Shown piece by piece: positions 22,075-46,832 of a stretch of DNA of 64,000 nucleotides. The DNA is taken from assembly GCF_006547045.1 (NCBI RefSeq), contig NZ_CP041242.1, forward strand, positions 2,924,001 to 2,988,000, written 5' to 3'. The position numbers were made by a program, and so were the translations under genes. Source of the DNA: Lysobacter alkalisoli (GTDB taxonomy: Bacteria; Pseudomonadota; Gammaproteobacteria; Xanthomonadales; Xanthomonadaceae). A model generated the notes under the pieces. The model had not been told where the DNA came from. It saw nothing but the letters and a program-made list of their open reading frames with translations, and made no database searches. Position 1 is the first letter of the stretch; each line of letters begins with the position of its first letter.

Positions 22075-22182
22075 GAAGCCGACGGCCATGCCTTTGCGGG
22101 ACCTTCGAAGGCATGGATGCCGACGATGAGCCCCCAGGGATGGGTTTACGGCGTGTCCCGCAAAGGCATGGCCGTCGGCTTC
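22075..22182. repeat. Dispersed hairpin element, copy A
   Basis: Perfect 28-bp inverted arms lie at 22075-22102 and 22155-22182, starting GAAGCCGACGGCCATGCC. The 52-nt centre carries a smaller hairpin (GGCAT-GG-ATGCC) and the conserved motif GATGAGCCCCCA followed by GGGTTTACGGCGTGTCCC. Copy B at 32785-32892 has the same centre but different arm bases that still pair. It fills most of the fmdB-aspS spacer, where no gene is visible. Confidence 0.85.
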
Positions 22183-22202
22183 CTCGCGAAACCTTGCTTC
22201 GT

Positions 22203-22499
22203 TCAATCCGTCTTGCTGGAAGCCGCAGGCCTGCTCCCGGACTTCTCCGCCGGCTTGTCCGGCTTGTCCGGCTTGGCCGCCCCGCCATCACCGGCCAGGT
22301 TGCGTTTCCTGTCGCCGTCCTTCTTGAAATCGGTCTCGTACCAGCCGCCGCCGGCAAGGCGGAACTGCGGCGCGGTCAGCTGGCGGCGCACCCGGGGCTC
22401 GCCACAGGATGGGCATTCGGCCGGATCGGCATCGGAAATCTTCTGCAGACGGTCGAAACTATGGCCGCAGGCGGCGCATTCGAAGGCATAGATCGGCAT
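22203..22499 (-). CDS. FmdB-family zinc ribbon protein
   Basis: A 98-residue putative regulatory protein of the FmdB/CxxC family. From the ATG at 22499 it begins MPIYAFECAACGHSFDRLQK and carries a zinc ribbon formed by CAAC and CPSC (residues about 8-11 and 31-34). It continues with the QLTAPQFRLAGGGWYETDFKK segment usual for this group, and ends in a Lys/Pro/Ser-rich low-complexity tail. It is the usual upstream neighbour of aspS in xanthomonads. Function is poorly defined in the family; a regulator or RNA-binding role is only suggested by the zinc ribbon. Confidence 0.9.
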   Translation of the reverse strand: MPIYAFECAACGHSFDRLQKISDADPAECPSCGEPRVRRQLTAPQFRLAGGGWYETDFKKDGDRKRNLAGDGGAAKPDKPDKPAEKSGSRPAASSKTD

Positions 22500-22646
22500 G
22501 GCGGTGTCGGAGTACCGAAACGGGCGGTTGGAGCACAAAGGATTAAAAGTACGAACGAATTGGAGCAGGGCCGGGCGGTACCGGACCCGCGCCAGTGTGG
22601 GGCCGCGGCCGGCCGATTCAAGCCGCGACGACGACCGCCGCGCGCC

Positions 22647-22685
22647 GGAATACTCAATATTCCTGATTTTTCAATGTGTTAGAAT
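22647..22685 (+). promoter_or_regulatory. Putative promoter with palindromic operator before the MFS/ggpPS operon
   Basis: A good -10 hexamer, TAGAAT, lies at 22680-22685, 28 nt before the MFS start. The -35 region has no clear TTGACA but contains a perfect 6-bp palindrome, GGAATA-CTCAA-TATTCC (22647-22663), a plausible operator. The local drop in GC over 22640-22690 is marked compared with the surrounding sequence. Salt-dependent control would fit the downstream genes but is not shown. Confidence 0.42.
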
Positions 22686-22712
22686 TTCGCGCTTGCCCAG
22701 GAACGCCGGACC

Positions 22713-23999
22713 ATGATTGCGACCGTACGTCCCCTGGCCGCGTTACTCGCAGGCGTGGCCCTCCTGCTGATGGGCAGCGGCCTGCTGGGCACGCTGCTGG
22801 CGGTGCGTGGGCGGATCGAAGGCTTCGACGACCAGACCCTCGGCCTGGTGATGTCGGCCTACTTCGTCGGCTTCTTCCTCGGCACCTATGCCGCACCGGG
22901 CCTGATCCAGCGGATCGGCCATATCCGCGCCTTCGCGTTCTACACCTCGCTCTGCGCGGCCACCGTGCTGCTACACGCGATATTCGTTTCGCCATGGGCC
23001 TGGGCCGTGCTGCGGCTGTTTACCGGCATCGCCCTGGTCGGCCTGTACACGGTGATCGAGAGCTGGCTCAACGTACAGGCACCTCCGGGGCAACGCAGCC
23101 AGCTGTTCGCGATCTACATGGCAGTCAACCTGCTCGCACTGGCGGCCGGCCAGTGGCTGATCGGGTTGTATCCGCAGGAGACCTTCACGCTGTTCAGCCT
23201 GGTCGCGATCCTGATCTGTCTGGCCGGACTGCCGGTCACCGCCAGCCGGATGGTCCAGCCGGAGTTGCCGCCAATGCCACGGCTGGCGTTGAAGGCACTG
23301 TTCAGGGTCGCCCCGGCGGCAACGCTGGGCGCGCTGCTGGCCGGGCTGGCGATGGGCGGCTTCTGGGGACTGGCCGCGGTATACGCGACCCGGATCGGGC
23401 TGGACGTCACCGGAGTGGCGATGCTGATGAGCATCACCATCATCGGCGGCGCAGCGCTGCAGTGGCCGATCGGCCGCCTGTCCGATGGAGGCGACCGCCG
23501 CACCACGCTGGCCGTGGTCTGCCTGCTCGCCGCCGGGACCGCGATGGCGATGCTGCTGCCCTCCGTGCCACGGATTCCTTCCGACCTGCTGCTGTACGGA
23601 CTCTGGTTCGCATTCGGCGGGTTGTCGTTTGCGATCTACCCGATCTGCATGGCCCACCTGCTCGACCACCTGCCACCCGAGGACACCCTCTCGGCCGGTT
23701 CCAGTCTGCTGCTGCTCAACGGTGTGGGCTCGGCGTTCGGACCGGCACTCGCCGGCATTGCGATGACCCGCTTCGGCCACGAGGCATTGCCGGTGTTCTT
23801 CGCCATCACCCTCGTCCTGGCCGCGCTGGTCGCTGGCGGGCGCCGCCTGCTGCGGCGCCGCGACACCGACCACCCGACCGCCTTCCACGTGATGCTTCGA
23901 ACTACCCCGACCGCGATCGAGCTGTTGCCCGAGACCGGGTCTGCCGACGACGACACCACCCACCTTCCCGACACCATCCCTGCCAAGGAAAACCATTGA
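22713..23999 (+). CDS. MFS transporter, YcaD-like, next to glucosylglycerol synthesis
   Basis: A 428-residue inner-membrane major facilitator with about 12 helices. The motif A-like loop after TM2 reads LIQRIGHIRAFAFY, TM4 follows in LRLFTGIALVGLYTVIESWLN, and the central loop is short. A second-half motif is seen in QWPIGRLSDGGDRRTTL. The C-terminal 40 residues are hydrophilic. The pattern ESWLN with NLLALAAGQWL is that of the YcaD subgroup. Its stop overlaps the TTG start of the glucosylglycerol-phosphate synthase gene, so both are one operon. A YcaD-like gene is also linked to ggpPS in Stenotrophomonas, which suggests export or recovery of glucosylglycerol or a related solute. Confidence 0.88.
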   Translation: MIATVRPLAALLAGVALLLMGSGLLGTLLAVRGRIEGFDDQTLGLVMSAYFVGFFLGTYAAPGLIQRIGHIRAFAFYTSLCAATVLLHAIFVSPWAWAVLRLFTGIALVGLYTVIESWLNVQAPPGQRSQLFAIYMAVNLLALAAGQWLIGLYPQETFTLFSLVAILICLAGLPVTASRMVQPELPPMPRLALKALFRVAPAATLGALLAGLAMGGFWGLAAVYATRIGLDVTGVAMLMSITIIGGAALQWPIGRLSDGGDRRTTLAVVCLLAAGTAMAMLLPSVPRIPSDLLLYGLWFAFGGLSFAIYPICMAHLLDHLPPEDTLSAGSSLLLLNGVGSAFGPALAGIAMTRFGHEALPVFFAITLVLAALVAGGRRLLRRRDTDHPTAFHVMLRTTPTAIELLPETGSADDDTTHLPDTIPAKENH

Positions 24000-26341
24000 C
24001 CCAGAAAGAAGCACAGATTCTTCCTCCCGCATCCATGCAGGACACCATCAGACTGCCCAAACTGATGCTGGCCACCGACCTGGATGGCACCTTCCTCGCC
24101 GGCACCCCGGAACATCGCCAGCACCTCTACCGGCTGGTCGATCGCCACCCCGAGATTCAGCTGGTGTTCGTCACCGGCCGCGGGCTGGAGGCGGTGATGC
24201 CGTTGCTGTCGGATCCGACCCTGCCGAACCCGGACTACGTGATCTGCGACGTTGGCGCGACCGTGGTCGATGGGCACAGCCGGCAACCGGTGCAGCCGCT
24301 GCAGGCCGCGATCGACGCCCGCTGGCCGGGCGAACATGCGGTCGCCGACCTGATCGACGACTTCCCCGGCCTGATCCGGCAGGACGTGCCGCAAGAGCGC
24401 CGCTGCTCGTACTTCTGCGATCCGAAGGCGCTGAAAAAAGTCCGCGGCGACATCGAGGCCGCGGCCGCCACACTCGACTGCTCGGTGCTCTATTCGGCCG
24501 ACCGCTATCTCGACATCCTGCCGTCGGACACCGACAAGGGCCGCACCCTGGCGGCGCTGGCCGTCCAGCTGGGCATCCCGCGCGAGCGTGTGCTGGTCGC
24601 CGGCGACACACTCAACGACCTGTCGATGTTCAGCGCCGGCTTCCAGGGCGTCGCGGTGGGCGAATCGGAAAAGGCGCTGACCCGCGCGACCCGCCAGCTG
24701 GCCAACGTGCTGCACGCCAAGGCACCGGGCTGCGGTGGAATACTGGAAGCGATCCGCCACTTCAGGCTGCTGCCGGAAGAGGAGCTGCAGCTGAGCACGC
24801 CGGCCTCGTTGAAGTTCGGCAAGTCGGACCTGGTGATGGTCTATCACCGGCTGCCGTACGAAGAGTATGTGGAGGACGGCCAGCTCAAGCGTCGCCAGCC
24901 GCGCTCGCCCAACGGCATCATCCCCAGCCTGCTCGGCTTCTTCAGCAGCGGACGCAAGGGCTCATGGGTGGCGTGGAGCATCGACGATCCGAAGTCGGGA
25001 CGCGCGTTCGAGACCCACACCGCCGTCGACACCGAGCTCTACCCCAACCTCGTCGCCTCGCGGGTGAAGCTGACCAAGGGCGAGGTGGATGCGTTCTACA
25101 AGCGCTTCTCGAAGGAAGCGTTCTGGCCGATGCTGCACACCTTCTGGGAGCGTGCGCGCTTCCGCGAGGAGGACTGGAACATCTTCCTCAAGGTCAACCG
25201 CAAGTTCGCCGAGGCCACCGCCGCCGAGTCCGCGCACGGCGCGACCGTGTGGCTGCACGACTACAACCTGTGGATGGTGCCGGCGTTCCTGCGCGAAATG
25301 CGCCCGGACCTGAAGATCGCGTTCTTCCACCACACCTACTTTCCGTCCGCCGACGTGTTCAACGTGGTGCCGTGGCGGCGCGACATCCTCGGCAGCCTGT
25401 TGCAGTGCGATTACATCGGCTTCCACATCCCGCGCCAGGTCGAGAACTTCGTCGATGTGGTGCGCGGCGCGATGCCGATCGAGACGGTCTCGCGCGAGGG
25501 CTGCGCGCCGCGCTTCCTGACCTACGGCTGCGCGGTGGGGCTGGACCGGATGACCACCGCGATCCGGGTCGGCGACCGCCAGATCGCGCTCGGTGCGCAC
25601 CCCGTCGGCACCGACATGGGCCGGATCCGCGGCATGCTCGCGCGCGAGGACGTGCGCGAGCGCATCGGCCAGATCCGCAAGGAATTCCATGGCCGCAAGC
25701 TGGTGTTGTCGGTCGAGCGCCTCGACTACACCAAGGGTTCGCTGGAGAAGCTGCTGGCATTCGAACGCATGCTCGCCGACCGGCCCGAACTGCGCGGCAC
25801 CGTGACCCTGCTGATGGTGTGCGTGCCGGCGGCGCAGGAGATGACCATCTACCGTCAGTTGCAGACCCAGATCGAACAGGCGGTGGGACGCATCAACGGC
25901 CGCCATGCGCAGCTGGACTGGACCCCGATCCGCTTCTTCGCCCGCGGCCTGCCATTCGACGAGGTCGTCGCCCACTACGCCGCCGCCGACGTGATGTGGA
26001 TCACTCCGCTGCGCGACGGCCTGAACCTGGTGTCGAAGGAGTTCATCGCCGCGCACGGCGTGGAGGACAGCGCCGGCGTGCTGGTGCTGTCTGAGTTCGC
26101 CGGCGCCGCGGCCGAGCTCAAGGGCGCGGTGCTGACCAATCCGCACGACCCGGCCGACCTGATCGTCGGCCTGGAGCAGGCGCTGGCGATGCCTCCGGAC
26201 GAGGCGGAATCGCGCCAACGGCAGCTGTTCGACATCGTCAGCCGCTACGACGTCGAGCGCTGGGGCCGCGACTTCCTGGAGGCGGTCGAGACTGCCGGCA
26301 GCGGGTTGCGGCGGCATGTGTATGAGCTGGAGCGGGACTAG
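23996..26341 (+). CDS. ggpPS: Bifunctional glucosylglycerol-phosphate synthase/phosphatase (GgpPS)
   Basis: Makes the compatible solute glucosylglycerol: the synthase part joins ADP-glucose and glycerol-3-phosphate and the phosphatase part removes the phosphate. The 781-residue protein has an N-terminal HAD phosphatase (LATDLDGTFLAG near 25, VTGRG near 60, GDTLNDLSMF near 205). A C-terminal GT20 domain follows from about 290 (ATVWLHDYNLWMVP, FFHHTYFPSADVFN, LSVERLDYTKGSLEKL, PLRDGLNLVSKEFIAAHG). The order phosphatase then synthase is that of the proteobacterial fusion enzyme and opposite to typical trehalose fusions. The TTG at 23996 is chosen because AAGGA lies 7 nt upstream; an ATG at 24035 is the alternative. 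Confidence 0.9.
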   Translation: MTQKEAQILPPASMQDTIRLPKLMLATDLDGTFLAGTPEHRQHLYRLVDRHPEIQLVFVTGRGLEAVMPLLSDPTLPNPDYVICDVGATVVDGHSRQPVQPLQAAIDARWPGEHAVADLIDDFPGLIRQDVPQERRCSYFCDPKALKKVRGDIEAAAATLDCSVLYSADRYLDILPSDTDKGRTLAALAVQLGIPRERVLVAGDTLNDLSMFSAGFQGVAVGESEKALTRATRQLANVLHAKAPGCGGILEAIRHFRLLPEEELQLSTPASLKFGKSDLVMVYHRLPYEEYVEDGQLKRRQPRSPNGIIPSLLGFFSSGRKGSWVAWSIDDPKSGRAFETHTAVDTELYPNLVASRVKLTKGEVDAFYKRFSKEAFWPMLHTFWERARFREEDWNIFLKVNRKFAEATAAESAHGATVWLHDYNLWMVPAFLREMRPDLKIAFFHHTYFPSADVFNVVPWRRDILGSLLQCDYIGFHIPRQVENFVDVVRGAMPIETVSREGCAPRFLTYGCAVGLDRMTTAIRVGDRQIALGAHPVGTDMGRIRGMLAREDVRERIGQIRKEFHGRKLVLSVERLDYTKGSLEKLLAFERMLADRPELRGTVTLLMVCVPAAQEMTIYRQLQTQIEQAVGRINGRHAQLDWTPIRFFARGLPFDEVVAHYAAADVMWITPLRDGLNLVSKEFIAAHGVEDSAGVLVLSEFAGAAAELKGAVLTNPHDPADLIVGLEQALAMPPDEAESRQRQLFDIVSRYDVERWGRDFLEAVETAGSGLRRHVYELERD

Positions 26342-26363
26342 AGCTGGTCAAGACACCGTCATC

Positions 26364-26460
26364 CCAACCCCTCTCCCGCACGCAGGAGAGGGGCTGAAAC
26401 GGCGCTCCTGCTTTGAAAGCCCCTCTCCCGTTCACGGGAGAGGGGTTGGGGTGAGGGCGC
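26364..26460. repeat. REP doublet (CCAACCCCTCTCCCG type)
   Basis: Two palindromic units lie head-to-head: CCCAACCCCTCTCCCGC...GGAGAGGGGCT at 26364-26395 and GCCCCTCTCCCGTTCACGGG...TTGGGGTGAGGGCG at 26420-26460. Outer arms are complementary to each other and each unit forms its own hairpin. It lies between the 3' ends of the convergent ggpPS and symporter genes. Five further members of this family occur in the window. Confidence 0.85.
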
Positions 26461-26475
26461 GGCGGAGCCGCAAGC

Positions 26476-28023
26476 TCACCAGAACGCCAGGATCACAACC
26501 GCCGTCAACAGCGCCACCACAGCCGCTCCCCAACGGATCGGAGCCGGCACCCGCGGTGCCTTCGACATATCCACGACCAGCAGTTGCTCTCTGGAGGGCC
26601 GCGCCGTGCTGGCGACCTGCCATAGCAATGCCGCCATCAGGGTCACCGCCAGCAGCACGCCGGCGACGATGGTGAAGTGCAAACCGATCCAGCCCAGCTG
26701 GCTGGCGACGAACCACGCCACGCTGACGGCATGGCCGGTGACCAGCGCACGCAATGCGGGGCCGGCGGCCAGCTTTTTCCACCACAGGCCCAACAGGAAC
26801 ACCGCCACCAGCGGCGGGGTGACGTAGGCGAAGGTCTGCTGCAGGTAGGCGAACAGTCCGGGGAAGCGGTCGATCATCGGCGCCCACGCCGCCGCCAGCG
26901 CCATCAGCAGCAGGGTGGTGATGCGGCCGATGCGGGCCAGCGCACGGGTATCGAGGTTCGGCCGGCGTGGCTTGATGAAGTCGAGGGTGATCAGGGTCGA
27001 GGCCGAATTCAGCGCCGAATCCACGCTCGACATGATCGCCGCCAGCAGGCCAGCCAGCACCAACCCGACCACGCCGACCGGTGCGTACTCGGCCAGCAAT
27101 CGCGCGAACACCTCGTCGCCGCGCTCCAGGTCCGGCAACAACGCGATCGCCATCGCGCCGGGCAGCACCATCAGGAACAACGGCAGCAGCTTGAGCGCCG
27201 CAGCGATGATCGCGCCCTTGCCGGCGGCCTCCACGTTGCGCGCGCCGAGCAGGCGCTGGCTGACGTACTGGTTCATGGTCCAGTAGTAGAAGCCGAGGAT
27301 CGGCAGGCCGATCAGTGTCCCGAGCCACGGCAGGTCGGGATCGTCGAGCGGGCGGATCAGCGACATGTGGTCGGCCGGCACCGCCGCCACGACCTTGCTC
27401 CACGAATAGTCGAACTCGCCGAACACCATCACCGCCAACACCGCCGAGCCGAGCAGCAGCACGATCGACTGCAGCACGTCGGTATAGACCACCGCGCGCA
27501 GGCCGCCGGCAGCGGTGTACAGACCGGCGAACAGGGCGATCGCGGCGATGGTCTCGACCAGCGGCAGCATCGGAAAGAACACCTTCAGCACCACCGCGCC
27601 GGCGAACAGGCTGCCGGCGGTGTCGAGCACGATCGACAGGAACACGCTGACGCCCGACAGGTACTTGCGCAGGCGTGCGTCGAAGCGGCGTTCGAGCAGT
27701 TCCGGGATCGTGGTCAGGCGATTGCCGAGCAGTACCGGCACCACGAACAGCGCCGAGAACAGCAGCACCAGCGCGGCCATCCATTCGTAGTTGGCGACCG
27801 CGATGCCCGACGTCCATGCCGCCCCAGGCAGACCGATCAGGGTGGTCGAGGAGATGTTCGAGGCGAACAGCGACAGTCCGACCACGCCCGCGCCCAGGGT
27901 GCGGCCGGCGAGGAACAATTCATCCGAATCCGGGCTGCGGCGCGCCACTCGCGCGCAGACCACGATGACCACCAGTGCATACGCCGCCAATACGGCGTAA
28001 TCGAACGTGTGCAGCGTTCCCAT
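26476..28023 (-). CDS. Sodium:solute symporter (SSS family)
   Basis: A 515-residue inner-membrane Na+-coupled symporter with about 14 helices. Family landmarks are the N-terminal FLAGRTLGAGVVGLSLFASNISSTTLIGLPG segment (SSS signature, given here as its recognised core FLAGRTLG and SNISSTT), the VVYTDVLQ region near 180, and PILGFYYWTMNQYVSQRLLGARN near 250. The Na+ site helix AGLLAAIMSSVDSALNSAS follows near 325. This pattern is closest to the sugar (SGLT-like) branch, but the substrate cannot be fixed. It is monocistronic, 150 nt downstream of the ABC-F gene on the same strand. That gap shows no ORF of note. Confidence 0.93.
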   Translation of the reverse strand: MGTLHTFDYAVLAAYALVVIVVCARVARRSPDSDELFLAGRTLGAGVVGLSLFASNISSTTLIGLPGAAWTSGIAVANYEWMAALVLLFSALFVVPVLLGNRLTTIPELLERRFDARLRKYLSGVSVFLSIVLDTAGSLFAGAVVLKVFFPMLPLVETIAAIALFAGLYTAAGGLRAVVYTDVLQSIVLLLGSAVLAVMVFGEFDYSWSKVVAAVPADHMSLIRPLDDPDLPWLGTLIGLPILGFYYWTMNQYVSQRLLGARNVEAAGKGAIIAAALKLLPLFLMVLPGAMAIALLPDLERGDEVFARLLAEYAPVGVVGLVLAGLLAAIMSSVDSALNSASTLITLDFIKPRRPNLDTRALARIGRITTLLLMALAAAWAPMIDRFPGLFAYLQQTFAYVTPPLVAVFLLGLWWKKLAAGPALRALVTGHAVSVAWFVASQLGWIGLHFTIVAGVLLAVTLMAALLWQVASTARPSREQLLVVDMSKAPRVPAPIRWGAAVVALLTAVVILAFW

Positions 28024-28173
28024 CGTTCCCCGTTCGTCCGGACCGCTTTTTACCCAAACATGCGGCGAGGCGATGAGTCAAACCGCAGGTCGGGCAACAA
28101 CAGATCCCTTACCCCGACCGGGATGACGAAACTCCGGCGACGAAATTCCGGCTGTGAATCGCAGCGGCAACGG

Positions 28174-30045
<1,872 letters not shown>

Positions 30046-30119
30046 GAAAGAACCCGAGGGCCTGAATACGGGCGGGCAGTTTATCGGCTGCGCGTCGCAG
30101 ACTGGTTGTTAAAAAAGTG

Positions 30120-30148
30120 TTGACATGCCTGTCATGTCGCTGTAATCG
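30120..30148 (+). promoter_or_regulatory. Putative promoter/operator of the TonB-dependent receptor gene
   Basis: A perfect TTGACA -35 box lies at 30120-30125, with a weak TAATCG at 30143-30148 after 17 nt. GACATG-CCTGT-CATGTC (30122-30138) is a perfect 6-bp inverted repeat that overlaps the -35 box, so a repressor could bind here. It sits 60 nt before the receptor start. No Fur-box-like GATAAT hexamers are seen. The sequence facts are direct and the regulatory role is inferred. Confidence 0.45.
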
Positions 30149-30209
30149 AATAATGCCGCATCGCAACACGACCTTCCTCCCCTTGTTCCAGGACCCAGCC
30201 GGAGTTGCC

Positions 30210-32600
30210 ATGAACCCATCGTTTTCCCCCCTCGCCCTCGCCGTTGCGCTCGCCCTCGTCGTTCCACCGGCCCTCGCCCAGGACGCAGGCGGCGACGCCC
30301 GCACCACCCTCGACACGCTGATCGTCACCGGTACCCGCGTGGCCGACCGCACAGTGGCCGAGTCGACTGCGCCGATCGACATCATCACCCCGGAAGCGCT
30401 CGAGGCCACCGGCACGGTCGAACTGGCCACCGCACTATCGCGCGCGGTGCCCTCGCTGAACTTCCCGCGCCCGGCCATCTCCGACGGCAGCGATGCGGTG
30501 CGCCCGGCGCAGCTGCGTGGCCTCGCCCCCGACCACGTGCTGGTGCTGGTCAACGGCAAGCGCTACCACCCCGGCGCGCTGGTCAACGTCAATGGCACCC
30601 AGGGCCGCGGCTCCTCGCCGGTCGACCTGAACTCGATCCCGATCTCCGCCATTGCCCGGGTCGAGGTCCTGCGCGACGGCGCATCGGCGCAGTACGGCTC
30701 CGATGCCATCGCAGGCGTGATCAACGTCGTGCTCAAGGGCAGCGACAGCGGCGGCGGAGTCACCGCCACCGTCGGCCAGTACAGCGCCGGTGACGGCAGG
30801 CAGTACCAGCTCGGTGCCGATGCCGGCTTCGCGCTGGGAGCCGACGGCTTCATCCACTTCGCCGCGCAGGGCGGCCACCAGGACCAGACCGACCGTGCGC
30901 GCCCGTTCATCGGCACCCCCACCCCCAGCTCGGCGCCGCTCGGCGAGGTCGTGCAGCGCTACGGCGATCCTGAAGTCGACAACGGCTCGTTTTCCTACAA
31001 CGCCGAATACGCCGTCATCGATGACCTGGCCTTCTATTCCTACGGCATCTTCACCAAGCGCGAGGTGCTGTCGAACGGCTTCTACCGGCCGGCCGGCGAT
31101 TCGCGCAACATCCCGGAGATCTATCCGGACGGCTTCCTGCCGCAGATCTACAACGAGTCCGAGGACGTCGGTTTGGTCGCCGGGCTCAGGGCCACCACCG
31201 CGGGCGGCACCGACGTCGACTTCAGCTACGCCTACGGCCACAACGAGCTGAGCTTCGACGTCCGCAACTCGCTCAACCGCAGCATGGGGCTGGATTCGCC
31301 GACCGACTTCTACGCCGGCGCGTTGGAACTCAAGCAGCACGTGTTGAACCTCGACTTCAACAAGCTGCTCGACTGGGGCCTGGCCTACCCGCTGACCCTT
31401 TCCTACGGCGCCGAGTGGCGCGGCGAGCAGTTCACCCAGTCGCCGGGCGAGCCGGCTTCCTACATCAATGGCGGCGTGCTGCTGCCCGGCGACGCGCCGG
31501 CACCTTCCGGTTCACAGGTATTCCCCGGATTCCGCCCAAGCGACAGCGGCAGCTTCGACCGCCACAGCTTCTCGTTCTACGCCGGCCTGGAAGGCGACCT
31601 GACCGACAGGCTTTCACTGGGCGTGGCCGCGCGCTACGAGGACTACAGCGACTTCGGCGATACCACCACCGGCAAAGTCACCGCACGCTATGCGTTCACC
31701 GACCGGGTCGCGCTGCGTGGCACCGTCTCCACCGGCTTCCACGCACCGTCGCTGCAGCAGCAGTTCTACCAGACCACCTCGACCAACTTCATCGGCGGTG
31801 TGCCGTTCGACATCGCCACCTTCCGCACCAACCATCCGGCCGCGATCGCACTGGGCGCGGAACCGCTGAAGGCCGAGGAATCGACCAACTACAGCCTGGG
31901 CCTGGTGCTGCAGCCGATCGACGATCTGTACGTCACCATCGATGCCTACCGGATCGAGGTCGACGACCGCATCACCCTGTCCGAGAACCTGGTCAGCACG
32001 CCGGTGCGCGAATACCTCAATGCCAACGGGTTCCCGGCCGTGGCCGGCGGTCGCTACTTCACCAATGCCATCGACACCACGACCGACGGTGTCGACGTTG
32101 TCGCGACCTACGGTTGGACGCTGGCCAACAGCACCCTCGACCTGACCACCGGCTACAACTACAACAAGACCAGCATCGACAAGGTCGCGCCCAATCCGCC
32201 GGCGCTGGAAGCCATCGACCCGGACGCGGTGCGCTTCGGCCGCCTGGAACTGGGCCGCTTCGAAGTCGGTGCGCCGCGCGACAAGTTCTTCCTCGGCGGC
32301 ACATGGAACGTCGGCGCGTTCAGCCTCGGCGCCACTGCGACCCGCTATGGCGAGTTCAGCGTGCTCAACGCCGACCCGGCGCGCGACCAGACCTTCGATC
32401 CGAAATGGACACTGGACCTGGCCGCGACTTACCGGCTCGACAGCTGGGAGTTCACGGTCGGCGGCGACAACGTGCTGAACGAGTACCCGGATGAAGTGAT
32501 CTTCGCCAACTCCTCGTCCGGCCAGTTGCCGTACAGCAGCTCGTCGCCGTTCGGCTTCAATGGCGCCTACGCCTACGCCCGGATTGGCTACAAGTGGTAA
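30210..32600 (+). CDS. TonB-dependent outer-membrane receptor, substrate unknown
   Basis: A 796-residue outer-membrane transporter energised by TonB. The ATG at 30210 has GGAG 6 nt upstream and gives a clear signal peptide (LALAVALALVVPPALAQ); the frame open to 30117 is rejected as it lacks one. A TonB box-like TLIVTGTRVADR is at about residues 36-47. The plug domain has RGLAPDHVLVLVNGKRYHPGAL and VEVLRDGASAQYGSDAIAGVINVVLKG (family core: DGASAQYGSDAIAG). The beta-barrel ends in the aromatic YARIGYKW. No siderophore or sugar gene is adjacent, so the ligand is open. A strong terminator follows. Confidence 0.92.
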   Translation: MNPSFSPLALAVALALVVPPALAQDAGGDARTTLDTLIVTGTRVADRTVAESTAPIDIITPEALEATGTVELATALSRAVPSLNFPRPAISDGSDAVRPAQLRGLAPDHVLVLVNGKRYHPGALVNVNGTQGRGSSPVDLNSIPISAIARVEVLRDGASAQYGSDAIAGVINVVLKGSDSGGGVTATVGQYSAGDGRQYQLGADAGFALGADGFIHFAAQGGHQDQTDRARPFIGTPTPSSAPLGEVVQRYGDPEVDNGSFSYNAEYAVIDDLAFYSYGIFTKREVLSNGFYRPAGDSRNIPEIYPDGFLPQIYNESEDVGLVAGLRATTAGGTDVDFSYAYGHNELSFDVRNSLNRSMGLDSPTDFYAGALELKQHVLNLDFNKLLDWGLAYPLTLSYGAEWRGEQFTQSPGEPASYINGGVLLPGDAPAPSGSQVFPGFRPSDSGSFDRHSFSFYAGLEGDLTDRLSLGVAARYEDYSDFGDTTTGKVTARYAFTDRVALRGTVSTGFHAPSLQQQFYQTTSTNFIGGVPFDIATFRTNHPAAIALGAEPLKAEESTNYSLGLVLQPIDDLYVTIDAYRIEVDDRITLSENLVSTPVREYLNANGFPAVAGGRYFTNAIDTTTDGVDVVATYGWTLANSTLDLTTGYNYNKTSIDKVAPNPPALEAIDPDAVRFGRLELGRFEVGAPRDKFFLGGTWNVGAFSLGATATRYGEFSVLNADPARDQTFDPKWTLDLAATYRLDSWEFTVGGDNVLNEYPDEVIFANSSSGQLPYSSSSPFGFNGAYAYARIGYKW

Positions 32601-32627
32601 GCATCCATCGCCGCAGGTGATGGGAAC

Positions 32628-32662
32628 GACGCCCCGCCAAGCGCGGGGCGTCTTCGTTTTTT
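32628..32662 (+). terminator. Rho-independent terminator after the TonB-dependent receptor
   Basis: GACGCCCCGC (32628-32637) pairs perfectly with GCGGGGCGTC (32643-32652) around the loop CAAGC, followed by TTCGTTTTTT. It begins 27 nt after the receptor stop codon. Confidence 0.93.
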
Positions 32663-32674
32663 GGCTCTTCTTGC

Positions 32675-32746
32675 GTTTCCAGGGATAGCGGTTTCCGGGG
32701 ATAGCGGCTCCGGAAGATGTCGACACCCCACCGGGTGGGGGTGTCG
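32675..32746. repeat. 16-bp tandem repeat followed by a GC-rich hairpin
   Basis: GTTTCCAGGGATAGCG (32675-32690) and GTTTCCGGGGATAGCG (32691-32706) are head-to-tail copies with one mismatch. A hairpin, CGACACCCC (32721-32729) with GGGGTGTCG (32738-32746), follows. The 427-nt gap from 32663 to 33089 also holds the hairpin element described next, and no gene is visible in it. Confidence 0.6.
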
Positions 32747-32784
32747 CTTCGGGTGTTTCTCAGGGAACGCCAGCAACCTGTCCA

Positions 32785-32892
32785 GAAGCCGATGGTCGTG
32801 GGTGTGCGGGGCCTTCCGAAACATGGATGTTTCGGATGAGCCCCCATGGACGGGTTTACGGCGTGTCCCGTACACCCACGACCATCGGCTTC
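32785..32892. repeat. Dispersed hairpin element, copy B
   Basis: 28-bp arms at 32785-32812 and 32865-32892 start GAAGCCGATGGTCGTGGG. They pair along their length with two G-T wobbles. The centre has a perfect 9-bp hairpin, CCGAAACAT-GG-ATGTTTCGG, and the motif GATGAGCCCCCA followed by GGGTTTACGGCGTGTCCC that is shared with copy A (22075-22182). It lies between the TonB receptor and the antiporter gene. The apparent minus-strand ORF through it is an artefact of the repeat. Confidence 0.85.
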
Positions 32893-33089
32893 CTCGCAGA
32901 ATCAACGCACCGGGACAATGACCCAAACCAGCGTCGGCCCCTTGGGCGCGGCCGGCGCCTCCCCGCAGCCCACCTGTCCATGACGTCGGCTGGCGTAGTC
33001 TGGCGTTTCCGTCATGTGGCGCTTCAGGCGGGTTGCGTCCCTTCCCGGCGGCCCACATCCTGCGTTGAGCCCTTGCCTCCGGAGCGTCG

Positions 33090-34772
33090 ATGCACCACAC
33101 CTCGCTGATCGCCATCCTCGTCGCCGGTTTCGTGCTTGCGTTCGTGTTCGGGGCACTGGCGCAGCGTCTGCGGCTCTCGCCGCTGGTGGGCTATCTGGTC
33201 GCCGGCATCGTCGCCGGTCCGTTCACGCCCGGCTTCGTCGCCGACCAGGAGCTGGCGCCGCAGCTGGCCGAGATCGGCGTGATCCTGCTGATGTTCGGCG
33301 TCGGCCTGCATTTCTCGATGCGCGACCTGCTCTCGGTCAAGGCGATTGCGCTGCCGGGCGCGGTCGTGCAGATCACGGTGGCCACCGTGCTGGGCTGGGG
33401 GCTTTCGCAGCTGCTGGGCTGGTCGCACGCCGCCGGCATCGTGTTCGGGCTGGCGCTGTCCGTGGCCAGCACGGTGGTCCTGCTGCGGGCACTGGAGGAA
33501 CGCCGCCTGGTCGAAACCGAACGTGGCCGCATCGCGGTGGGCTGGCTGATCGTCGAGGACCTGGCGATGGTGCTGGCGCTGGTGCTGCTGCCGGCGCTGG
33601 CCGAGATCATCGGCGGCGGCGGCGAAGAGGCACCTTCGGTTTCGATCGTGCTGCTGAAGACCTTCACCAAGGTCGGCGGCTTCGTCGCCTTCATGCTGAT
33701 CATCGGCCGGCGGGTGATCCCGTGGATCCTCGAACGCGTCGCTGGCACCGGTTCTCGCGAACTGTTCACCCTGTGCGTGCTGGCGATCGCGCTGGGCGTG
33801 GCGTTCGGCTCGGCGCACTTGTTCGGGGTCTCGTTCGCGCTGGGTGCGTTCTTCGCCGGCATGCTGCTCAACGAATCGGAGTTCAGCCACAAGGCCGCCA
33901 GCGAGACCCTGCCGCTGCGCGATGCGTTCGCAGTGCTGTTCTTCGTCTCGGTGGGCATGCTGTTCAACCCGATGATCCTGGTCGAACATCCGTTCGAGGT
34001 GATCGCGACCTTCCTGATCATCGTGCTGGGCAAGTCGATCGCCGCCTACGCGATCGTGCGTGCGTTCGGCAAGCCGGACTCCACCGCGCTGCTGATCTCG
34101 GCCAGCCTGGCGCAGATCGGCGAGTTCTCCTTCATCCTCGCCGGCCTCGGCCTGCAGCTGGACATCCTGCCCCAGCGCGGCCAGGACCTGATCCTGGCCG
34201 GCGCCCTGCTTTCGATCGTGATCAATCCGTTGCTGTTCCAGTGGCTGGACAGCCGAACCCGCAGGGAAGCTTCCGCCACGCCGCCGGAGCCGCCCCGGGT
34301 GATTCCCGGCATTCCCGACGACCTGTCCGGGCACGTCATCCTGATCGGCTTCGGCCGCGTCGGCAGCGAGCTTGGCCGACTGCTGAAGGCGCAGGACGTG
34401 TCGCTGGTGGTGATCGATGGCGAGGATGACCTGGTCGAACATGCACGTGCCGCCGACCTGCCCGCGATCCGCGGCAATGCCGCCAACGAAAAGGTGCTGG
34501 CGGAAGCGCGTCCCGAAACCGCCAACACCGTGATGCTGGCGATCCCGAACGTGCTGGAAGCCGGCGAAATCATCGCCCGCCTGCGCGAGATCAACCCGGG
34601 CCTGACCATCGTCGCCCGCGCCCACAGCGACGCCGAGGTGAAGCACCTGCTCGAGCACGGCGCGGATGGCGCGGTCATGGCCGAACGCGAGCTGGCTCAC
34701 AGCCTGGCCGAGATGGTACTGGCCACCCCTGCGTTCCGCGGCGACCGTCGGCTGCCACCCGCCGGTGCCTGA
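33090..34772 (+). CDS. CPA2 cation:proton antiporter with TrkA-N domain (YbaL/KefB-like)
   Basis: A 560-residue inner-membrane protein. The first 390 residues form about 12 helices of a Na+/H+ exchanger fold, with LRLSPLVGYLVAGIVAGP near the N-terminus, ALSVASTVVLLRALEER near 130 and GVSFALGAFFAGMLLNESEFSHKA near 250. The C-terminal cytosolic RCK/TrkA-N domain begins at about 408 with HVILIGFGRVGSELGRLL (GxGxxG), as in YbaL. It probably exports K+ in exchange for H+. It is separated from the convergent cobS gene by 85 nt without a clear terminator. It is a further K+-linked system in this window. Confidence 0.92.
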   Translation: MHHTSLIAILVAGFVLAFVFGALAQRLRLSPLVGYLVAGIVAGPFTPGFVADQELAPQLAEIGVILLMFGVGLHFSMRDLLSVKAIALPGAVVQITVATVLGWGLSQLLGWSHAAGIVFGLALSVASTVVLLRALEERRLVETERGRIAVGWLIVEDLAMVLALVLLPALAEIIGGGGEEAPSVSIVLLKTFTKVGGFVAFMLIIGRRVIPWILERVAGTGSRELFTLCVLAIALGVAFGSAHLFGVSFALGAFFAGMLLNESEFSHKAASETLPLRDAFAVLFFVSVGMLFNPMILVEHPFEVIATFLIIVLGKSIAAYAIVRAFGKPDSTALLISASLAQIGEFSFILAGLGLQLDILPQRGQDLILAGALLSIVINPLLFQWLDSRTRREASATPPEPPRVIPGIPDDLSGHVILIGFGRVGSELGRLLKAQDVSLVVIDGEDDLVEHARAADLPAIRGNAANEKVLAEARPETANTVMLAIPNVLEAGEIIARLREINPGLTIVARAHSDAEVKHLLEHGADGAVMAERELAHSLAEMVLATPAFRGDRRLPPAGA

Positions 34773-46479: not shown

Positions 46480-46715
46480 ATGTCGGGTCATGCCTGGGGC
46501 CGGTCTCCGGGCTTGCGAGCGGAACCGGCGGATCGCCGTGGGCTCCCGGTCCGCGCCTTCCCATGCATCAGGCACAGTGGCTGCGTGCGGACCTTGTCTC
46601 GCCTACCGTTGCGGGGGCAGCTCCGGAATTGCCGATCGCGATGCCACATGTCGTGGCCCGCGACCCGGCGCACCGGATTCCCGTTTCAACCACCGTCCCG
46701 GACGGGAGCGGCAGT
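46480..46715 (-). promoter_or_regulatory. Cobalamin (AdoCbl) riboswitch controlling btuB and the cob operon
   Basis: On the minus strand the B12 box reads AAGCCCGGAGACCGGCC (46514-46498), matching the conserved consensus. The other conserved blocks are GGAGCTGCCCCCGCAACGGT (around 46624-46605) and GGTTGAAACGGGAATCCGGTG (46691-46671). The order and spacing are those of the class I riboswitch. Downstream, before btuB, GCACGC-ACC-GCGTGC (46457-46443) could serve as the expression-platform hairpin. Cobalamin binding would lower expression of btuB and the eleven genes behind it. Exact ends are approximate. Confidence 0.93.
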
Positions 46716-46832
46716 CACCTCAGGCGGGACGGAGTCTAGCAGTTTGCCGCAGCCCTGAGCGGCGCGACGTCATGACATGTGGGCATGTCGCCCTCGTTAC
46801 CACGGGAGCTAAGGAGCACAAGCCCATGAATT

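Follow-up and report, generated by a model that had tools for sequence, protein, structure and literature searches.

Dispersed intergenic elements with a three-way-junction fold and paired CsrA/RsmA-like loops in Lysobacter alkalisoli and other Gammaproteobacteria

A 64,000-nucleotide window of the Lysobacter alkalisoli genome (contig NZ_CP041242.1, positions 2,924,001 to 2,988,000) contains two long hairpins with different arms and a common core. Both are members of a dispersed intergenic family, here called type A, which folds as a three-way junction with covarying stems, conserves two hairpin loops, shows strand polarity in its outer stem and has been gained or lost between congeners. We consider it probable, though well short of settled, that RNA of the core strand would be a two-site ligand of the regulator CsrA/RsmA, serving as a decoy and/or as a protected 3′ end. 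The element is non-coding and probably non-autonomous, and we infer that it is, or once was, mobile.

A covarying three-way junction dispersed across a class

A preliminary description of the window, made from the letters alone, placed the two hairpins at 22075–22182 and 32785–32892 with 28-bp arms around a 52-nt middle. Both were found there, copy 1 pairing at 28/28 positions and copy 2 forming 28 pairs including two G.T (Table 1). The layout it gave, of outer arms, a middle and one inner hairpin, stands as far as it goes; it missed a second hairpin in the middle beside the inner one, GCC-CCC-ANGGAN-GGG-UUUAC-GGC, so that the plan is a three-way junction. From the 5′ side the order is outer arm, hairpin 1 (the inner hairpin, up to 10 bp, capped by CAUGGAUG), one A, hairpin 2 (3 bp, a UUYAC bulge on the 3′ side, 3 bp), GU and outer arm. 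On the + strand both copies have fold energies far below those of shuffled sequences (z −8.95 for copy 1 and −9.99 for copy 2; 0/200 shuffles equal).

With up to three mismatches allowed, the core occurs twice in the window against 0.02 expected, and at 26 places in the genome against none for the reversed control, which excludes chance as its source. A covariance model built from these 26 matches (R1) found 61 full copies, the window copies among them, and two weaker ones in the 3.86-Mb genome. The preliminary description had named a total of only two copies genome-wide, with no covariation in homologues, as a result that would speak against it. The two weaker matches, L114 (C1:3078763) and L115 (C1:129372), are hybrids in which the same foreign 3′ half, GGCAACGCGTTTGCGAAGCACTGCTTCG, has replaced the element's own, which suggests mosaic formation with another repeat. 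The flanks of L010, L014, L033, L054 and others define a subfamily of copies nested in a longer palindrome (GTCGTCCCGAGCGCAGCGAGGGATCTGCTTT ... AAAGCAGATCCCTCGCTGTGCTCGGGACGAC in L010), which may be a separate repeat that served as target, or else belong to the element as its outermost portion.

The arms of the 26 seed copies, 28–29 bp long, differ from copy to copy yet still pair. Paired changes in the arms had been proposed from the two window copies; among the 45 pairs of the 26-copy alignment, 29 have changed on both sides, and 97.1% of cells pair, a level reached by 0/500 shuffles and by none of the slid controls (33–43%). Double changes affect 26/30 pairs in an alignment of 51 chosen copies from which longer variants were left out (A3), and 27/30 pairs in 44 class-wide copies fitted to the covariance model (A4); in each the covariation score was reached by 0/500 shuffles. 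The 80-nt core is gap-free across the 51 copies, and RNAalifold, unaided, predicted 29 of the 30 core pairs. In some host copies a paired deletion has removed one base from either side of hairpin 2 (GAGC...ACGCG in place of GAGCC...ACGGCG).

The genome and its relatives were searched with covariance models, as the preliminary description had proposed, and a dispersed family was found whose class-wide spread that description had missed. Each genome was scored on its best candidates (150 in the host, 25 in the bacterial family for type A, 12 in the class, 11 in the phylum, 25 for the type B repeat described below), and counts may include both strands, so that copy numbers are rough and genome tallies are lower bounds. 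Within the same bacterial family at least 39 of 149 sampled genomes, in 16 of 54 genera, have type A matches. A shorter, 80-nt model (R2) matched at least 70 of 369 gammaproteobacterial genomes (62 of 272 genera, 53 numbered families). In a phylum sample, for which the number of out-of-class genomes is not given, at least 28 of 398 genomes have matches, all of the same class or closer. A strict exact pattern was present in eight stretches from named genomes, namely Marinobacterium, Parahaliea, an Aeromonadaceae metagenome-assembled genome (MAG), Oceanisphaera, two Stenotrophomonas maltophilia strains, Aliiglaciecola and a proteobacterial MAG. One window copy used as query in each of the plasmid and phage collections found no match, and an Rfam scan over the window left the element without a match at the gathering threshold; a permissive scan of copy 1 gave ten matches, all sub-threshold and mostly to long-hairpin miRNA models. 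Neither the core strings (two of six together) nor a description of the family was found in a literature search that mostly excluded subscription papers.

Strand polarity and the CsrA/RsmA-like loops

Non-Watson–Crick pairs in the outer arms of the host copies are G.U in 38 cases, A.C in 3 and other in 21 (61 of 63 copies, L114 and L115 being left out; 12 of the 21 come from one copy, L112, that is out of register), and the G.U excess over A.C is significant (p 1e-8). The two G.U orders are nearly equal, 18 and 20. Copies antisense to both neighbouring genes show the same pattern in their arms (8 G.U against 1 A.C), as do the outer stems of a nonredundant set (48 against 4); this set comprises 96 copies below 85% identity drawn from 130 matches (125 distinct) from 100 sources, all best-hit loci and hence a non-random sample. 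Since the mismatches are G.U, not A.C, on the strand with GATGAGCCCC, selection appears to act on that strand in its single-stranded, folded form. The flanks, a weak control, have almost no base skew (C over G +0.04, T over A −0.005), which makes strand-biased mutation an improbable source of the pattern. Most simply the selected strand would act as RNA, single-stranded DNA (ssDNA) being the alternative, and a function at the RNA level is strongly suggested. These results, with the copies, the covariation and the presence and absence in congeners, uphold the earlier proposal of an element, recognized as RNA or ssDNA, whose core is fixed and whose variable stem is self-complementary, in contrast to repetitive extragenic palindromes (REPs) with constant stems. 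They disfavour its companion idea that one arm is copied onto the other, since copying should leave both transition mismatches equally often.

Both hairpins present the same loop motif, which the preliminary description had not noticed. In the nonredundant set CANGGANG occurs in 92/96 copies at hairpin 1 and 96/96 at hairpin 2 (120 and 129 of all 130 rows), and A(N)GGA in both loops at once in 93/96 copies (125/130 rows); ANGGA of hairpin 2 belonged to the seed pattern, whereas the hairpin 1 loop did not. The base before GGA takes all four letters, with T/G/A/C counts in the 96 copies of 61/24/8/2 in hairpin 1 and 48/41/5/2 in hairpin 2. In the host every one of the 61 full copies shows CA(N)GGANG at hairpin 1 together with CANGGANG at hairpin 2; the exact 8-mer is found in both loops of 55, and the two GGA lie 22–23 nt apart.

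The available parts of PMC4353343 and PMC6692469 give the RsmA/CsrA consensus site as (A/U)CANGGANG(U/A), and those of PMC6849547 likewise give CANGGANG; in vitro selection (SELEX) yielded RUACARGGAUGU, mostly in hairpin loops (PMC7652899, in part), and both dimer subunits contribute to each RNA-binding surface of CsrA (PMC6692469). The loops thus strongly suggest that CsrA/RsmA reads them. The host genome has one csrA, at C1:1418562. One CsrA dimer can bridge two sites, and a type A copy, having two consensus sites, would be suited to a single dimer. With the class sample limited to genomes of 90% completeness or more, CsrA is present in 57 of 58 bearers against 223 of 256 others (p 0.009), and among all class-sample genomes in 65 of 70 against 248 of 299 (p 0.04), both p values ignoring kinship and genome reduction. 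The bearers without a CsrA match are G156, G216, G247, G342 and G488.

A second repeat, type B, repeats the plan of two hairpins with GGA, which favours the CsrA explanation. It was met in genome G082, where it precedes type A copies head to head at 20 of 20 places inspected. A covariance model of 15 such copies (R3) matched at least 28 of the 149 genomes of the bacterial family, nine of them without a type A match, and four places in the host, three divergent beside type A (624090, 309193 and 1756802). Type B also consists of a long variable stem and two hairpins, with double changes in 35/38 pairs over 29 rows that include opposite-strand matches. Among the 22 rows folded (the seven weakest were left out, and loops were read by eye) hairpin 1 has CANGGATG in 21, 19 of them as CATGGATG, and hairpin 2 has GGA in 20, seven as ACAGGAUGU; the losses are all in host copies (hairpin 2 GGA in L298 and L038, the hairpin 1 motif in L029). 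Because R3 matches type A weakly and on the opposite strand (29–40 bits), the two are alike in plan more than in sequence, and they may have a distant common origin.

Placement, mobility and competing explanations

All 63 host copies lie between called genes, three overlapping a called open reading frame (ORF) by 16–31 nt. Their spacers are tandem co-directional in 27 cases, tandem antisense in 12, convergent in 17 and divergent in 7. Elsewhere the corresponding counts are 26, 33, 30 and 5 for 94 classifiable copies, which remain from the 128 non-window rows once 34 are removed (13 falling within called genes, 14 at the edge of their locus and 7 distant from genes) and in which some genomic copies count twice (for example L078/L129 and L191/L199); genes were called from codon usage, more crudely at G+C below 60%. 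Divergent, that is promoter, spacers are thus rare (7/63 and 5/94) and 3′ regions favoured, and the excess of convergent over divergent sites (17 against 7, and 30 against 5) speaks for a ligand made within 3′ regions. The upstream gene is on the core strand for 44/63 host copies and 56/94 elsewhere (p 0.08). Read-through from the upstream gene was rejected as a rule, since the host excess of co-directional tandem spacers (27 against 12) is not seen elsewhere (26 against 33). Taking the origin at position 0, in view of a presumed dnaA ORF near base 85, and the terminus half way by assumption, replication meets the core strand head-on in 45 of 63 host copies (p 0.0009); as a general rule this too was rejected, G064 having 59/112 copies and 10/18 single copies head-on.

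From these observations we propose that the core strand would be selected as a folded RNA in which a long outer helix, free in sequence, closes a junction with two hairpins, so that each copy displays two consensus RsmA/CsrA loops 22–23 nt apart. Transcription would occur mainly within mRNA 3′ regions, where the copies would titrate CsrA/RsmA as decoys and/or, once bound by CsrA, form nuclease-resistant 3′ ends. RsmU is described in the available text of PMC7694677 as an RsmA-binding RNA out of a 3′UTR in Xanthomonas, so RsmA ligands derived from 3′UTRs exist in that genus.

Several observations weigh against this proposal. Loop conservation is somewhat overstated, because the hairpin 2 loop was in the seed and both the models and the best-hit loci favour conserved columns. 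G342, 98% complete and with nine element matches, has no CsrA match, and a GGA-mutant of RsmU still bound RsmA (PMC7694677, in part). Tandem spacers are co-directional in 27/39 host cases and in only 26/59 elsewhere; owing to antisense tandem placement, many copies, copy 1 included, would be read by their neighbours as the wrong strand. A terminator-like hairpin precedes copy 2, and a scan of 32500–33200 around it found no sigma-70-type promoter pattern. In the inner hairpins of the nonredundant set G.U exceeds A.C only slightly (15 against 10), which weakens the case built on strand polarity. Neither the conservation of the UUYAC bulge nor that of the junction letters is accounted for by CsrA; both hint at tertiary structure or at another partner.

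Mobility was judged from congeners, arrays and a possible transposase link. A search for empty sites, as earlier suggested, showed that G141 has 29 bp where the host has 303 bp with copy 2, between flanks 86 and 90% identical. At the copy 1 site six congeners show no element match between matched flanks, in a loose alignment; their spacers are shorter in G019, G093 and G514, and longer in G141 with other sequence. Congeners are too diverged for exact junctions (terminal inverted repeats, target duplications) to be read from these comparisons. In one genome, G064, 112 matches form 52 clusters with strict alternation of orientation in 33 of 34 multi-copy clusters, a pattern that the preliminary description had missed. 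Arrays on its contig C1, such as L291–L294, alternate over up to six copies, several of them with steps of ~132 and 161 nt. G082 has near-identical copies at 20 places, within a larger repeated unit. In three host copies (L051, L024, L112) clearly and in a fourth (L052) probably, the core is reversed relative to the flanks (with TGGACA, for example, at the 3′ side), as though the middle segment had turned over between the inverted arms, which indicates that exchange between arms does happen.

The preliminary description had suggested looking for a linked RAYT gene, and no such link proved necessary: a Y1 transposase is present in 29 of 39 bearers against 72 of 110 others (p 0.33), ten of the 39 bearers, including G082, G106, G031 and G141 with 11–25 element matches each, have no Y1 match, and in the host 35 kb separate the Y1 gene (C1:2272942) from the closest copy. 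A RAYT-driven REP was therefore rejected as a requirement.

The most serious alternative is that the core strand folds as an ssDNA transposition substrate whose GGA loops are gripped by a dimeric mobilizing protein, HUH/Y1-like or other, as has been proposed for REPs and bacterial interspersed mosaic elements (BIMEs), structure and loops being kept since only foldable copies spread. The many copies, the G082 and G064 arrangements, the congener presence and absence, the head-on bias in the host and the two similar loops per unit all fit such a substrate. We nevertheless judge it unlikely, given the Y1 distribution, the lack of strand bias in G064 and the 3 A.C against 38 G.U in host arms, since selection on ssDNA should end with insertion and A.C mismatches should then accumulate. 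Less likely again is a generic 3′-end element, a bidirectional mRNA stabilizer, terminator or insulator whose loops serve tertiary structure, not CsrA. Its very stable hairpins, the location of every host copy between called genes and the rarity of divergent spacers would suit it; such an element would not need A-N-GGA-N with a free N in two loops, nor its recurrence in type B, and no U-run directly follows the element in the host copies inspected. Neutral palindromes, with pairing kept by template-switch repair or arm-to-arm copying, would explain the often perfect arms and the arm exchange seen in core flips, and are very improbable in view of the G.U excess over A.C, the fixed loops and bulge, and a common plan over 53 numbered families.

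The window copies, known systems and implications

The features of the window copies and the type B copies are collected in Table 1. Copy 1 is flanked by genes for a zinc-ribbon protein and for a class II tRNA synthetase that has a GAD domain and that we take to be of the aspartyl type; the copy is antisense to both. Copy 2 lies between a TonB-receptor gene, from which the terminator-like hairpin separates it, and a Na/H-exchanger gene; terminator-like hairpins around it number two against a mean of 1.0 in shuffles. Its 5′ extension recurs at C1:2520013–2520214 (query 693–894, 80%) and C1:2581521–2581734 (query 692–901, 77%). Elsewhere in the window a cobalamin riboswitch lies at 46481–46737 on the − strand (Rfam RF00174, 93.1 bits).

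Table 1. Positions of type A and type B features; plain numbers refer to the window, C1 to the host genome and L to loci
Feature	Position	Strand	Remark
Copy 1, type A, whole hairpin	22075..22182	+	
Copy 1 outer arm, 5′ side	22075..22102	+	28/28 paired with 22155-22182
Copy 1 hairpin 1	22103..22128	+	apical C-AUGGAU-G at 22112-22119, CANGGANG match
Copy 1 hairpin 2	22130..22152	+	apical C-AGGGAU-G at 22135-22142, CANGGANG match
Copy 1 hairpin 2 UUUAC bulge	22145-22149	+	
Copy 1 outer arm, 3′ side	22155..22182	+	52 nt between arms
Terminator-like hairpin (intrinsic type) 3′ of TonB-receptor gene	32628..32652	+	just ahead of the 303-bp stretch
Stretch with copy 2, unmatched in congener G141	32659..32961	.	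303 bp; empty or alternative site
Copy 2 5′ extension	32691..32784	+	repeated ahead of a few further copies
Copy 2, type A, whole hairpin	32785..32892	+	
Copy 2 outer arm, 5′ side	32785..32812	+	26 Watson–Crick and 2 G.U pairs with 32865-32892
Copy 2 hairpin 1	32813..32838	+	apical C-AUGGAU-G at 32822-32829
Copy 2 hairpin 2	32840..32862	+	apical C-AUGGAC-G at 32845-32852; UUUAC bulge 32855-32859
Copy 2 outer arm, 3′ side	32865..32892	+	
Host type B copy	C1:624090-624203	+	
Host type B copy	C1:309193-309304	-	
Host type B copy	C1:1756802-1756912	-	
Host type B copy	C1:2568524-2568637	+	
Type B loci	L158-L177		5′ of type A
Type B loci	L295-L314		

Small RNAs (sRNAs) that sequester CsrA are encoded by one to a few dedicated genes, each RNA with many sites and its own promoter. 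CsrB/CsrC, RsmX/Y/Z and Aln1a-c, the last described as CsrA/RsmA-sequestering sRNAs in the available text of PMC5864184, resemble the element in presenting A(N)GGA in single-stranded parts or loops. By description the element is set apart from them in that each copy has two sites, the copies are dispersed and number dozens, the outer stem is long and variable, no catalogued sRNA family was matched at the Rfam threshold and no promoter was seen beside copy 2. RsmU is alike as an RsmA-binding RNA from a 3′UTR and differs in being processed from comEA mRNA, in Xanthomonas only, with four GGA in its long form (PMC7694677, in part). Known to us from its description, RsmU may itself be a copy of the type A family.

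Integron attC sites keep their conserved boxes at the foot of the stem and vary at the top. They are like the element in a variable stem, small conserved parts and recognition of one strand, whereas the element conserves its core and varies in the outer stem. To our knowledge, repeats of the enterobacterial repetitive intergenic consensus (ERIC) type differ from it in sequence. Together with IRU, YPAL and palindromes resembling miniature inverted-repeat transposable elements (MITEs), they are intergenic hairpin repeats of ~100–170 nt in Gammaproteobacteria, as type A is; the ERIC repeat is a single long stem-loop, not a three-way junction, and the available part of PMC2267715, from which these points are taken, does not mention CsrA for such repeats. 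As in MITE-like palindromes, the type A copies are many, intergenic, long-hairpin and without coding capacity. REPs and BIMEs with RAYT share with the element many intergenic palindromic copies and alternating arrays, and are described in the accessible text of PMC2817692 as short palindromes that bear a GT(A/G)G head and flank a rayt gene; the element is ~108 nt long, has a variable stem and no RAYT requirement, and by eye no GT(A/G)G head was seen at its ends in the host copies inspected. By the features tested the element is distinct from REPs, and it would combine a dispersed palindromic repeat with a likely CsrA-ligand RNA.

More tentatively, class-wide mobile repeats of types A and B may more than once have become genomic CsrA decoys, so that repeat spread and loss would retune CsrA control. 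Dozens to more than 100 copies per genome would jointly set the pool of free CsrA/RsmA, and CsrA binding may in turn protect the element RNA and help it to spread.

Dispersed bacterial palindromes are usually classed as DNA repeats whose use is unexplained. Here a class-wide family carries the recognition loop of a global regulator twice per copy while its stems are free to vary, and type B is alike. If CsrA binds these loops, the covariance models would define a new RNA family, and the repeats would be a heritable part of a regulatory circuit that can be tuned by copy number.

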